Shown here: in pieces, positions 31,647 through 36,953 of the stretch
How the letters are laid out: every line of letters begins with the position of its first letter
Numbering within the stretch: the stretch's first letter is position 1
From: Bacteroidales bacterium
Lineage (GTDB): Bacteria > Bacteroidota > Bacteroidia > Bacteroidales > Paludibacteraceae
Assembly: GCA_022777485.1 (NCBI GenBank)
Contig: JALFGC010000052.1
Span: 1 to 40,329 of the forward strand
Direction of reading: 5' to 3'
Length of the DNA stretch: 40,329 nt
The notes under the pieces: model-generated
The model's input: only the letters and a program-made list of their open reading frames with translations
The model's database searches: none
What the model was told of the DNA's origin: nothing
Program-made: the position numbers and the translations under genes

Positions 31647-32768
31647 TTAAGAAAGTCTATTTAACGAAGCATTTTCTAATCGTACAGATGTGGCTTTTAG
31701 AGTTTGCAATCCTTCAACTCGGACATCAGCACCTTGATTAAAAGCTTCGGTGACTAATTGTGAATACTGTGCATTATCCAATTCTACTTTTACAGTAATT
31801 TTTTGTCCCTCATCTCCAATCGCTGCCACTGATATCATTAATTTATCCCGACTTTCTACTTCTGCAGCACCTGCAATATTTGTAATTTTCCCGTAATAGG
31901 CCTTAGTAATATTTTGTTCAGCCTTCGGCATGTATTTCTCTGCTATATATGTTACTTTATCAATATAACGAGGCTCTAGTTTAATCGCTGTAATCGGATT
32001 AGGAATTGGATTAGGAACATCCACATTCCAAGAGGCACTTATGTTTACATCCGTATTAGAATTTTCCTCGTACAATCTTGTTAGGGCATTAAGAAAGTTG
32101 ACACTTATATTGCCTGCTGCCACTTTCTCGTCCGCCAAGGAACTATTATCCTTTATTGATTGTTGAATAGTGTCTATATTTTCAAATATTCTGAGGTTAA
32201 TTTTCCTACTTAGCGGTAATTCTTCAGCATTCGGATCAAATAACGTATGTTGATAATATCCCAATGGACATATGATATTTAAGATATAGCTACCTATTTC
32301 GGTTTGACCGAATTTATAGGTTTCCATTTGTTTCACAACAGCTTGTGTCTGAATTTTCTTATGGTATGTTAATGGACTAATTATATCCACACATGTCGCA
32401 GACAATAATTCTTTGATATAGTCTATATTTGCCTGCATAGCATTAAAGGAGATTTCCCCTCTCGAAGTGAGATCATCTGCTATGCGCCATCTTAACAAAT
32501 CACTCGATGGATTGATTAATTTACTATAAACCGCCTGGATTGAGGACTTTTCTACAATGGATAATATCTTCAACGAATCCTTAATAACATCGTAATAATC
32601 GGAGAAATCTTTAGTTAGGGGTATATATACCACATCCTCACTCTCAGGATAGATAAACTGCTTGACCTTACCTCCAGCGAGATCAGACAACTGTCGCCAA
32701 TTTCTTTTCTCAAGATATTGGCATAACATTTGCATGTTAATTCGATCTATTTGTTGCTTATTATCCAT
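31647..32768 (-). CDS. Uncharacterised 373-aa protein, partner of DUF4365 protein (putative defence component)
   Basis: Long AT-rich ORF; start codon overlaps the DUF4365 stop (TAATG). Confidence 0.75.
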   Translation of the reverse strand: MDNKQQIDRINMQMLCQYLEKRNWRQLSDLAGGKVKQFIYPESEDVVYIPLTKDFSDYYDVIKDSLKILSIVEKSSIQAVYSKLINPSSDLLRWRIADDLTSRGEISFNAMQANIDYIKELLSATCVDIISPLTYHKKIQTQAVVKQMETYKFGQTEIGSYILNIICPLGYYQHTLFDPNAEELPLSRKINLRIFENIDTIQQSIKDNSSLADEKVAAGNISVNFLNALTRLYEENSNTDVNISASWNVDVPNPIPNPITAIKLEPRYIDKVTYIAEKYMPKAEQNITKAYYGKITNIAGAAEVESRDKLMISVAAIGDEGQKITVKVELDNAQYSQLVTEAFNQGADVRVEGLQTLKATSVRLENASLNRLS

Positions 32769-33286
32769 TACAACGGTTGTTCGTTGGCAACTTTAATCAT
32801 TATATCTTTCAGTGTCTCTGCTGTTAACAAATCAGCAGCAGAAAAATGTATACTAATAGTTTCTTGGTTGTCTGTAGGAGCCTGTCCCGCTAAACATTTC
32901 CAATACGCACACTTCGTTATTTTAAGGTAATCTGTAGTTTGTTCTATCCATTGATTTACATCTTCATGCATTTGAAGAACAATTAGGATAAGAGGTTTAA
33001 AACGATTCTCATCGATAAGCGATCTATAATTATCAACCTCTAATGCATATGATATTGTTCCGTCATTATTACTATGAATTTTGGCATATGAAGATTTTAA
33101 CTGCACTTGTATAGAAGGAGAATGTTTCTTGCAATTATCAGTAGGGCATCCGCTACAATTAATAGTTATATCGTATCCATCATTATCATGCTCAACACTC
33201 CCTATACTATAGCCATTGACAGCACACAGAGCGCGCACGTAAGCCACACTCATATCCTCCATTCGTAATTGTTGTGTATTGGGCAT
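32768..33286 (-). CDS. DUF4365-like protein with PD-(D/E)xK-like core
   Basis: 'AYVRALCAVNGYSIGSVEHDNDGYDITINCSG...SIQVQLKSSY': D-(x)n-QVQLKSS pattern of DUF4365. Confidence 0.78.
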   Translation of the reverse strand: MPNTQQLRMEDMSVAYVRALCAVNGYSIGSVEHDNDGYDITINCSGCPTDNCKKHSPSIQVQLKSSYAKIHSNNDGTISYALEVDNYRSLIDENRFKPLILIVLQMHEDVNQWIEQTTDYLKITKCAYWKCLAGQAPTDNQETISIHFSAADLLTAETLKDIMIKVANEQPL

Positions 33287-33558
33287 ATTGATATCTATAA
33301 TCTTTCGTTCGCAATACCACCACTTGGAATGATATTGTTTTCATTTACAAATTTGCTGCAAAGATAATGCATTTCTTTCAAATATACAAATAAATTTACA
33401 TTTTGTGGCGATTTGAGAGGGTTATGATGTATAAAAATGAAAAATAATCACATTATAAACAAAAACTACACCTTTTTACTGACAAATTTGATGAAAAGTT
33501 TGCACATATCAGAGTTTTTAAGTATCTTTGCAACCTAATTTGAAAAAAGTTAACAAGA

Positions 33559-34446
33559 ATGCCTAAGAAAGCGACATATCTTCATGAACAGATCGCCCTG
33601 CTGCGCTCACGCGGAATGGTTATTACCGATGAGCAGAAAGCAGAGGAGATTTTATTGGATGTGGGTTACTACCGTTTGGGCTTCTACGCCTACCCTTTTG
33701 AAATCAACCCACAGCAACAACCGCGAGACCACACATATAAACCAGATACAGACTTCAACCAGATTGTTGATCTTTACTACTTTGACCATGATTTGCGTCA
33801 TATACTTATGCGTTATATCAGCCGAATAGAAGTCAACATCCGTACGTTCATCACTTACACGGTTAGTAACTATTATAAGAATGATCCAACATGGTTTGTT
33901 AACTCCAAAGTAGTTAAGGCTGATTTCCGCAACAACTTTGAGCAGAAGATATACAGTACATTGCGTCAGAACCCGTGCATTGCCAACCATCATCATCGCT
34001 ATCATAATGATCGCTATGCTCCGGCATGGAAGACGTTGGAGTTCATGACACTTGGCAGTATTATCACATTATACGAAAGCCTATTGGATCAGAACCTCAA
34101 GCTACAAATCGCGAAACATTATGGTTTGAATACGATTCCTTTGTTTGAAAACTATTTGCAAACGCTAAAAGTTATCCGCAATGCATGCGCTCACGGAAAC
34201 CATATATTTGATTTGCGGTTAATAAAAGCGGTTAAGAAAGGACCTCTTCAGCACTTCGAAGCTGAACATCGTCACGATATCTATGCAGTGCTTTTAGTAC
34301 TCTTGTATTTCTTGCATCATATATCGGAAAATCGTGAGCAAGAACTACGAATTGCACTAGAAAAACACCTAAAACAGCCAAAAAACAAAGAAAATGTAAT
34401 TATTTTGAACGATTTTTTGCAAAAAGTTTTGCTATATCAAAAATAA
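33559..34446 (+). CDS. Abi family protein (AbiD/AbiF-like, Abi_2; HEPN fold)
   Basis: 'YLHEQIALLRSRGMVITDEQKAEEILLDVGYYRLGFYAYPF', 'RHILMRYISRIEVNIRTFITYTVSNYY', HEPN Rx4H motif in 'VIRNACAHGNHIF'. Confidence 0.93.
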   Translation: MPKKATYLHEQIALLRSRGMVITDEQKAEEILLDVGYYRLGFYAYPFEINPQQQPRDHTYKPDTDFNQIVDLYYFDHDLRHILMRYISRIEVNIRTFITYTVSNYYKNDPTWFVNSKVVKADFRNNFEQKIYSTLRQNPCIANHHHRYHNDRYAPAWKTLEFMTLGSIITLYESLLDQNLKLQIAKHYGLNTIPLFENYLQTLKVIRNACAHGNHIFDLRLIKAVKKGPLQHFEAEHRHDIYAVLLVLLYFLHHISENREQELRIALEKHLKQPKNKENVIILNDFLQKVLLYQK

Positions 34447-34458
34447 TTACTACCTTTG
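34429..34458 (+). promoter_or_regulatory. Consensus Bacteroidetes promoter overlapping the 3' end of the abi gene
   Basis: TTG (34429-34431) - N19 - TACCTTTG (34451-34458). Confidence 0.85.
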
Positions 34459-34462
34459 CACC

Positions 34463-34557
34463 GTCAATTGAGACAGTGTCCGTATTGGCAGGTCCAATAT
34501 CTACACTTAAAAAGGTGAAAGACAACGCTCCGCGAGATAGAGCGTTGTCGCTTTTTT
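34463..34557 (+). ncRNA. Predicted Abi-associated structured ncRNA (~95 nt)
   Basis: Own promoter; hairpin AGTGT-CC-GTATTGG-CAGGT-CCAATAT-CT-ACACT (34475-34507); perfect 10-bp terminator GACAACGCTC/GAGCGTTGTC (34521-34549) then T6; not coding. Confidence 0.8.
34519..34557 (+). terminator. Intrinsic terminator of the Abi-associated ncRNA
   Basis: GACAACGCTC-CGCGAGATA-GAGCGTTGTC-GC-TTTTTT. Confidence 0.92.
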
Positions 34558-34670
34558 ATACTTTTAAGTCATCCGAAAAAGGAATTCCTGATTTTGAAAA
34601 AAGCAATTATTGCAGCAGAATCGCCACACCAGATTCCTCCATTATAGCATTTACTTTCGCCTTTATTCCA

Positions 34671-35675
34671 TTAGACTATGCTGTCCCCTTTTTTGAGAAC
34701 ATCTGGTATTAAATTTTCCAACTGGAGCGTTTGCATATATTCAACATATGATATTACTTCTTTATTTTCCCTTTTCTCTTTTTCCGCTACATTTTTTGCT
34801 GCATTTATCATTTTGTTGTCACCACTAACTAATACAATTCTCTCTCCGTCTATACTTTTTCCTGCTGCAAATAATATTAAAGTGTCCCATATCGTATTTA
34901 GTCGAGAACCTTTTTGAGGTATAGCACTTCTTTCTTTTAATCCTATAATCATTGATCTAAATTGTTCTGTGGGAATTTTATTCTGAGACACAATAAGTTC
35001 ATACATTTCAATTGTAGGTTTAAGTAGTATCTGACAATCTCTATATAGTGCTTGTTGAAGAGCCATTATTATTACAGAAGCCATAAAAATATCTAATGCA
35101 TATTCATTTTCAACATACTCTTTCAACAATGCCTTATTTATCTTATTTTGCTCCTTCGATATTGATTTATTTTTCCTTAGCCAAGTGTCGTGGATATACT
35201 GTAAAAGGATTCCAAACTGCTGTTCAGTCTCCTGTATTGTATAATATATATTATTAATGTTATGTTTGAATTCATTATTTAGAGTTGTCATTTGCTCTAT
35301 TGATGATAACTGAGAAAGTTGGAAAAGCATTCGTCCAACATATATTTGATTATTTATAAGACGAGAATAATCAAAATCTACTAATTCTTTTGCAAGTTGT
35401 ACCCAAATTTGTGGTAGTAATCCATAATTTTTTTTGTCTCCACAATGAAAATACATTGCTTGAGACGCACAAAAACGAGATTTATCATCTGCTGACATCG
35501 GCTCCTTTAAGTGCGATAAGAGTTCTTGTGCTACTGTATCACATATCAATGCATGAATAGGCTCTGAATATTTAGTCTCCGCTGAACGAAGAAGATTCAC
35601 ACGTTGCCTTATTGTTTCATTATCTTTATTATCCGCTAAATAAAGATATGCATTTGTGTCAAATATAACAATCAT
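34671..35675 (-). CDS. PIN-domain putative ribonuclease (334 aa)
   Basis: N-terminal 'MIVIFDTNAYLYLAD', mid-region acidic residues, C-terminal 'DTLILFAAGKSIDGERIVLVSGDNKMINAA'. Confidence 0.72.
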   Translation of the reverse strand: MIVIFDTNAYLYLADNKDNETIRQRVNLLRSAETKYSEPIHALICDTVAQELLSHLKEPMSADDKSRFCASQAMYFHCGDKKNYGLLPQIWVQLAKELVDFDYSRLINNQIYVGRMLFQLSQLSSIEQMTTLNNEFKHNINNIYYTIQETEQQFGILLQYIHDTWLRKNKSISKEQNKINKALLKEYVENEYALDIFMASVIIMALQQALYRDCQILLKPTIEMYELIVSQNKIPTEQFRSMIIGLKERSAIPQKGSRLNTIWDTLILFAAGKSIDGERIVLVSGDNKMINAAKNVAEKEKRENKEVISYVEYMQTLQLENLIPDVLKKGDSIV

Positions 35676-35906
35676 AATAAAATTATAAAAAAATATTTTC
35701 TAAATTAATATATTTATAATCTCAGTGCACATTTCATTTAGATTCTTCTATGTTAAGAGTTGATAACATTCCCTTATATATTACGACTTATAATCTTTTC
35801 GGGGGCATAGTTACTATTTTTTGAGACATACATATTCATTTGAAAATTGCTCATAGCGTTGCAGTTTTAACAACCTCGACCGTCAAAGATTTTTAAGCTG
35901 TCATAC

Positions 35907-36953
35907 TTATTTATCTTCTTTAGGAGAGACAGACACATCCGGAGTCTTTTTTTCAGGATTTCTCTCTTGAAGAGATTGAGACAAATCAAATTTAACATTC
36001 CCAAAATCTATATCTTTGAGCGCATCAAAATTTATATATCGTTGCCATAATTCCACATGTTTAGATATATCTGGCAAACGTATCTCTTGTATCGTATCTA
36101 TTTCCTCTTTATTAAATACTTTTCCTGTTTCATTAGCATAATTAATAAAATCTTGTAATGGATACATAAGGATATGCCCATTAGAAATAGCTTGAAATTC
36201 TTTTAGCAAATGAGGATGAAGCCCACATTTTCTTCCATGCAAAATCCATTGCCAATCTCCCTTGTTGAGATCACGTGAAACAAATACTATAGAACTTTCT
36301 GGGTGTGCAGCAGCAAATTTTAAAATTTCTTTCCATATAATCAAATCGCCATACTTATTTCCATTGGTTTTATTACTATCTTCATGTCCAGGAGGTTCTT
36401 TCAATCCAAATCTTCTTGCTCCTTCTTCTTCAATTTGTCTTATTTCATCTTCTGAAAATTGTTCTAAAACTTTATCTCCCAAAAAGTCTGCAAGTTCGTC
36501 TGGCAACTCCCATGTTTCTAATTGTTGCGATATAAAATTTTTCTCCTGGGTTATTTTATTTCGAAATACTCTGAGTGCTTTCGTAATATGCTTCTTAAGC
36601 ATTTTTGCTAAATGTTCATATTTAAACAAATCTTTAGAATTATCCTCTATCAGTTTGATTATATAATCTGCTGTGATTTTTTCAAATAATGTAGAATATA
36701 GGCTATCACATTCTATCATTATATCGTACACATGTTCATGATATTCTTCTGCTACATGATAGGGTATCTTTATTTGATTTTCATATTTCTTAAATAACCT
36801 TATTACTTTATTTGATACGGTTTTTCCCAGTCTATAAATATCAAGTAAAGCATTTGTATCAAAAATAAAATAAGTGTCTGGACTATTAAATATAGCCTTC
36901 TTTTGTTCCTGTTTTAGAGGGTAATATGCTTTAAATTTTGTTTTCATACTCAA
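35907..36953 (-). CDS. PIN-like domain protein (DUF4935/PIN_8 type)
   Basis: 'YFIFDTNALLDIYRLGKTVSNKVIRLFKKYENQIKIPYHVAEEYHEH', 'PPGHEDSNKTNGNKYGDLIIWKEILKFAAAHPESSIVFVSRDLNKGDW'. Confidence 0.85.
   Translation of the reverse strand: MSMKTKFKAYYPLKQEQKKAIFNSPDTYFIFDTNALLDIYRLGKTVSNKVIRLFKKYENQIKIPYHVAEEYHEHVYDIMIECDSLYSTLFEKITADYIIKLIEDNSKDLFKYEHLAKMLKKHITKALRVFRNKITQEKNFISQQLETWELPDELADFLGDKVLEQFSEDEIRQIEEEGARRFGLKEPPGHEDSNKTNGNKYGDLIIWKEILKFAAAHPESSIVFVSRDLNKGDWQWILHGRKCGLHPHLLKEFQAISNGHILMYPLQDFINYANETGKVFNKEEIDTIQEIRLPDISKHVELWQRYINFDALKDIDFGNVKFDLSQSLQERNPEKKTPDVSVSPKEDK

Follow-up and report, generated by a model that had tools for sequence, protein, structure and literature searches.

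An AbiF-type HEPN gene of Bacteroidales with a conserved structured RNA at its 3' side, a probable type III-like toxin-antitoxin locus

The Cas13 nuclease has been proposed to descend from AbiF, and the crRNA from the RNA that accompanies AbiF. In classical type III toxin-antitoxin systems such as ToxIN, CptIN and TenpIN, a protein toxin is neutralised by a tandem-repeat RNA that lies 5' of the toxin. RNA-neutralised AbiF is likewise already known. PbAbiF of Prevotellaceae, solved together with its RNA AbiFr (8VZ6; Zilberzwige-Tal et al., Cell 2025), forms a dimer that holds two ncRNAs, one per monomer (PMC12373285; PMC12737573), and its R210/H215 double mutant is reported to be inactive (PMC12373285). 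In a C. difficile prophage, the gene for the Abi_2 protein AbiFCd adjoins that of its partner RNA, RCd22, which lies 5' of the toxin gene, is co-transcribed with it by terminator readthrough, and contains two RF03085 motifs. RCd22 binds AbiFCd directly and thereby neutralises it, an effect shown both in cis and in trans (PMC12373285). Toxicity is thus suppressed by the RNA in each of the two AbiF systems characterised so far (PMC12373285; Cell 2025 as relayed in PMC12737573). AbiF ncRNAs are represented by published covariance models, AbiF5_iter3.CM and diverse_rna_xinsi.CM (Zilberzwige-Tal et al.; named in PMC12804078), and, in Rfam, by the abiF RNA RF03085, a two-part hairpin with an internal loop that is tied to abiF genes.

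Here we analyse a related locus on contig JALFGC010000052.1 of a Bacteroidales bacterium of the Paludibacteraceae (GCA_022777485.1), of which the whole 40,329-nucleotide stretch is referred to as the window. An earlier note, made from the DNA letters, had read the locus as an AbiF-type HEPN protein gene followed by a 3' ncRNA with a promoter of its own, and this reading is supported by the conserved structure downstream of homologues, its covariation, its specificity for abi, the match of the protein to PbAbiF in both sequence and fold, and the lack of a match to RF03085.

The AbiF protein and its adjoining RNA element

The abi gene (33559..34446, + strand) is an intact open reading frame of 295 aa that ends in a TAA stop codon at 34444-34446. 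Its product, described in the earlier note as Abi_2-like with a HEPN RNACAH motif, does match Pfam Abi_2 (E 6.9e-45, 154 bits against a cut-off of 25.6) and carries RNACAH at residues 207-212 (R207...H212; 34177..34194, + strand), while PADLOC assigns it to AbiD (E 7.9e-53). The sole clearly related solved structure in sequence and profile searches of the PDB is 8vz6, PbAbiF with its ncRNA (E 4.8e-33 by sequence); the profile search returned PbAbiF alone, with Cas13 absent from the results. An AlphaFold2 model built with 41 aligned relatives (mean pLDDT 90.7) gave a significant Foldseek match to 8vz6 and to nothing else (TM 0.78, E 1.2e-13, 28% identity over the structural alignment). Across 41 relatives R207, N208 and C210 are invariant and H212 is present in at least 90%, and the motif aligns with RNSCCH of PbAbiF. 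By domain, Rx4H motif and AbiF fold, the window protein is a member of the AbiD/F (Abi_2) HEPN family. The separate abi promoter that had been proposed can be read at 33500..33530 (+ strand), with TTG at 33500-33502 and TATCTTTG at 33523-33530, and 30 of 37 loci have a TAnnTTTG box no more than 150 nt from the start of the abi reading frame.

A second set of promoter-like elements, of the Bacteroidota kind, spans the abi stop codon (34429..34458, + strand), with TTG at 34429-34431, a spacer of 19 nt and TACCTTTG at 34451-34458, so that it overlaps the TAA of abi. Downstream lies the putative ncRNA core (34475..34507, + strand), a two-part hairpin with stems AGTGT/ACACT and GTATTGG/CCAATAT and the loop CAGGT, for which alignment, covariation and covariance models define a conserved outer AGTGY/RCACT stem and a covarying inner stem. 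An A-rich linker (34508..34520, + strand; family consensus nTAAAA) separates it from an intrinsic terminator (34521..34557, + strand), in which the perfect 10-bp stem formed by GACAACGCTC and GAGCGTTGTC, at 34521-34530 and 34540-34549, is followed by T6 at 34552-34557. Promoter, hairpin and terminator had each been claimed in the earlier note, and all three are present in the sequence as described. The folded stretch, which includes the terminator, has a z-score of -4.56, and none of 200 shuffled sequences (0/200) was equally stable.

Relatives were gathered by a protein-only search, which yielded 43 genome loci at 38-100% identity, with one fragment (L044) at 36%. The covariance model that had been suggested, from homologous abi 3' flanks, was built from 37 RNA cores of these 43 loci (R1), and it matches beside abi in 39 of the 43, most of them loci in its own training set. 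The lack of a conserved structure 3' of close abi homologues, named beforehand as the outcome that would refute the reading, is not what the relatives display. Their 3' flanks have a common order of TAnnTTTG, AGTGC...GCACT, nTAAAA and terminator: in 35 of 37 loci the box stands 8-16 nt upstream of the hairpin, compared with 3% of background bins, and a terminator-like hairpin with a T-rich tail follows the RNA core in 35 of 37.

Covariation was scored on a MAFFT alignment of the RNA cores made without structure, in which standard pairs make up 91% of pair cells and two-sided pair changes number 50. Shuffled alignments gave 16.8 such changes and slid ones no more than 13, and pairing likewise exceeds both kinds of control. 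Covariation is strong in the inner stem, where many pair types occur; the outer AGTG/CACT stem is invariant across the alignment and therefore conserved, but uninformative by covariation. A second model, R2, for which the window and its nearest relatives were left out of the training set, recovers the window RNA blind at 34472-34515 (E 6.7e-7) and also matches seven loci outside both training sets. Two loci, L067 and L083, have two tandem RNA units directly 3' of abi, each with a promoter-like box and terminator, the first unit being too diverged for detection by the model. In L087 (G173:C26) the window-type RNA, again followed by a terminator of its own, stands 5' of abi.

Linkage to Abi_2 genes and apparent transfer as a unit

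Scanning 393 genomes of the order with R1 gave six matches at E<1e-8, each of them immediately 3' of an Abi_2 gene and in the orientation of that gene, and a seventh (G305, E 1.1e-6) close to a contig start, 104 nt away. Among 396 genomes of the phylum there was one further strong match, G589 from another order, which lies 3' of an Abi homologue and comes with promoter and terminator. Every strong match with upstream sequence sits directly behind an Abi_2 gene. Counting full-length clade members of the order sample only, with Abi_2 fragments left out, the RNA accompanies 8 of 8, seven times 3' and once (L087) 5' of the gene. A conserved structured ncRNA is stably linked to abiF. Weak matches were judged to be chance: neither those in the order (G119, G039) nor those in the phylum (G742, G462, G577, G440, G566 and G548) have an Abi homologue in the flanks that were fetched, and the two from the order are simple hairpins in which the apical portion of the motif is missing.

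The closest comparisons delimit a unit that includes both gene and RNA. Between the window and L003, whose proteins are 98% identical, similarity in this region is limited to 33521-34560 with unrelated sequence on both flanks, and the common unit runs from the abi promoter to the terminator. Similarity to L004 stops at the same terminator, at 34557, with 97% identity in the RNA core and 73% in the gene. The abi gene and the RNA appear to move together and to be selected together.

In plasmid and phage collections we found distant Abi_2 proteins only: no best match reached 60% identity, and those among the matches listed did not exceed about 32%. Cultured strains that carry a member of the clade include Alloprevotella rava DSM 22548, Duncaniella muris DSM 103720 and Hoylesella nanceiensis DSM 19126.

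On the 5' side of abi and divergent from it, two adjacent ORFs (31647-33286, - strand) correspond to PDC-M02A (DUF4365) and PDC-M02B, which PADLOC lists as a candidate defence pair, and the region is likely a defence island. On the 3' side two ORFs (34671-36953, - strand) are convergent with abi, one without a Pfam match (34671-35675, - strand) and the other encoding a PIN_8 protein (35907-36953, - strand). A contig labelled Eubacterium sp. (L002; JALERM010000139.1) is 99.9% identical to the window over 7.2 kb and is probably mis-binned.

Two AbiF clades with two RNA types

Elsewhere in the order, Abi_2 genes are preceded by a hairpin of another kind, placed in their 5' leader, and only some of these leader hairpins are confirmed by a model, given that RF03085 matches 3 of 15 scanned 5'-type loci at a relaxed threshold and a pattern search found a convincing leader hairpin to be lacking in about four 5'-type leaders. 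A maximum-likelihood tree of 72 proteins splits 27 5'-type from 45 window-type proteins at 100/100 support and needs a total of only three changes in RNA state, and the HEPN motif is RNxCAHG in the window type versus RNx(C)(A/C)HH in the 5' type. Both window-type and RF03085 RNAs are two-part hairpins with an internal loop, but their models do not cross-match in either direction: RF03085 has no match in the window at E<=10 or in ten window-type relatives at E<=1, and R1 and R2 have none in the 5'-type loci. Rfam scans of the abi/RNA region at gathering and relaxed thresholds gave chance matches only, and the suggestion that the ncRNA is uncatalogued holds for Rfam 15.

The solved PbAbiF complex represents the other clade, because PbAbiF is 91% identical over 215 aa to L063, its nearest relative found here, and L063 has an RF03085 RNA 5' of its gene. 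PbAbiF resembles the window in protein family, fold, aligned HEPN motif and the possession of a structured partner RNA, but its clade has RNxCAHH or RNxCCHH rather than RNxCAHG, and the window RNA is a different one, 3' with its own promoter. The C. difficile system has an Abi_2 protein with an adjoining partner RNA gene, as in the window, yet the window RNA is unlike RCd22 in lying 3', having its own promoter, usually consisting of one hairpin unit and having no match to RF03085. The likeness to ToxIN, CptIN and TenpIN is one of analogy, since the window has an Abi_2 HEPN toxin candidate and a 3' RNA with its own promoter in place of a tandem-repeat RNA on the 5' side.

Throughout the window clade the RNA is 3' and promoter-driven, with one 5' exception (L087) and one RNA-less subclade. 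The members of that subclade, L032, L039, L040 and L041, keep RNxCAHG yet show no R1 RNA on either side, and their abi follows a similar reading frame without assigned identity, as if fixed at one chromosomal place. Retention of the catalytic motif suggests that the protein there manages without the window-type RNA or is not toxic.

A toxin probably silenced by a bound RNA

Very probably the locus is a type III-like toxin-antitoxin system in which an AbiF toxin is silenced by a bound RNA. AbiF, with its HEPN RNase fold and motif, would probably dimerise, cleave RNA and arrest growth. An RNA of approximately 95 nt, transcribed from a separate promoter where abi ends, would fold as the two-part hairpin, bind AbiF and hold the toxin inactive. 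With separate promoters for toxin and RNA, expression of the toxin would be independent of readthrough from the RNA gene, unlike in the RCd22 system of C. difficile. If the RNA supply fell, through phage infection or some other insult, the toxin would be released and abortive infection would follow. The lack of an RF03085 match and the RNA-less subclade speak against this reading. We infer transcription of the RNA, its binding to the protein, toxicity, neutralisation and the phage trigger; an RNA-bound, neutralised AbiF is the most likely state here because family, fold, motif and RNA linkage are as in the relatives.

Linkage, covariation and a separate promoter cannot separate an inhibitor from a cofactor or sensor that AbiF needs in order to act, for example a phage-sensing RNA, and the loci L032 and L039-L041, with the motif but without the RNA, would also fit such a role. 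We consider it unlikely, given that the RNA is a suppressor of toxicity in both characterised AbiF systems (PMC12373285; Cell 2025 via PMC12737573). The RNA, being short, structured and separately promoted, would also fit a type I antitoxin, an antisense RNA that blocks translation of the abi mRNA by pairing with it; this we regard as quite improbable, since RNA and abi are on the same strand without overlap, the RNA is conserved in structure and not in complementarity to abi, and pairing with the 5' region of its own abi is no better than with others (mean rank 0.499 over 34 loci, from crude duplex energies).

The hairpins might also be a mere 3' UTR and terminator of the abi mRNA with no separate RNA function, given that a terminator is present and that transcripts from the promoter of abi could run on into the hairpin. 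The recurrence, in 35 of 37 loci, of TAnnTTTG at a near-fixed distance upstream of the hairpin, a covarying hairpin distinct from the terminator, and the same RNA with its own terminator 5' of the gene in L087 make this very hard to credit. The chance that the hairpin is a mobile-element end or an attC-like recombination site that happens to flank the cassette seems negligible, even though it lies near the 3' edge of the transferred unit: strong model matches are confined to positions next to Abi_2 genes or at the edge of a contig, with promoter and terminator, and no second copy of the hairpin was found in the window with the covariance-model filters off.

The RNA family and its 3' self-promoted position were found neither in Rfam 15 nor in the accessible literature. 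Their novelty is provisional, because the covariance models of Zilberzwige-Tal et al. 2025 may include the window RNA type. We tentatively propose that a major Bacteroidota AbiF clade may have an antitoxin RNA family of its own that RF03085 does not recognise, with toxin and RNA as separate transcription units and the RNA 3' and sometimes doubled (L067/L083), an undescribed layout in which effector and RNA would be uncoupled as in CRISPR-Cas. The clade supplies a second, independently variable AbiF RNA family with clean covariation and a near-fixed promoter position, and offers two RNA positions (3', rarely 5') together with a natural RNA-less branch. Hence, it makes testable how one HEPN fold is matched to different RNA inhibitors, and how an RNA supply would work when uncoupled from the toxin transcript.
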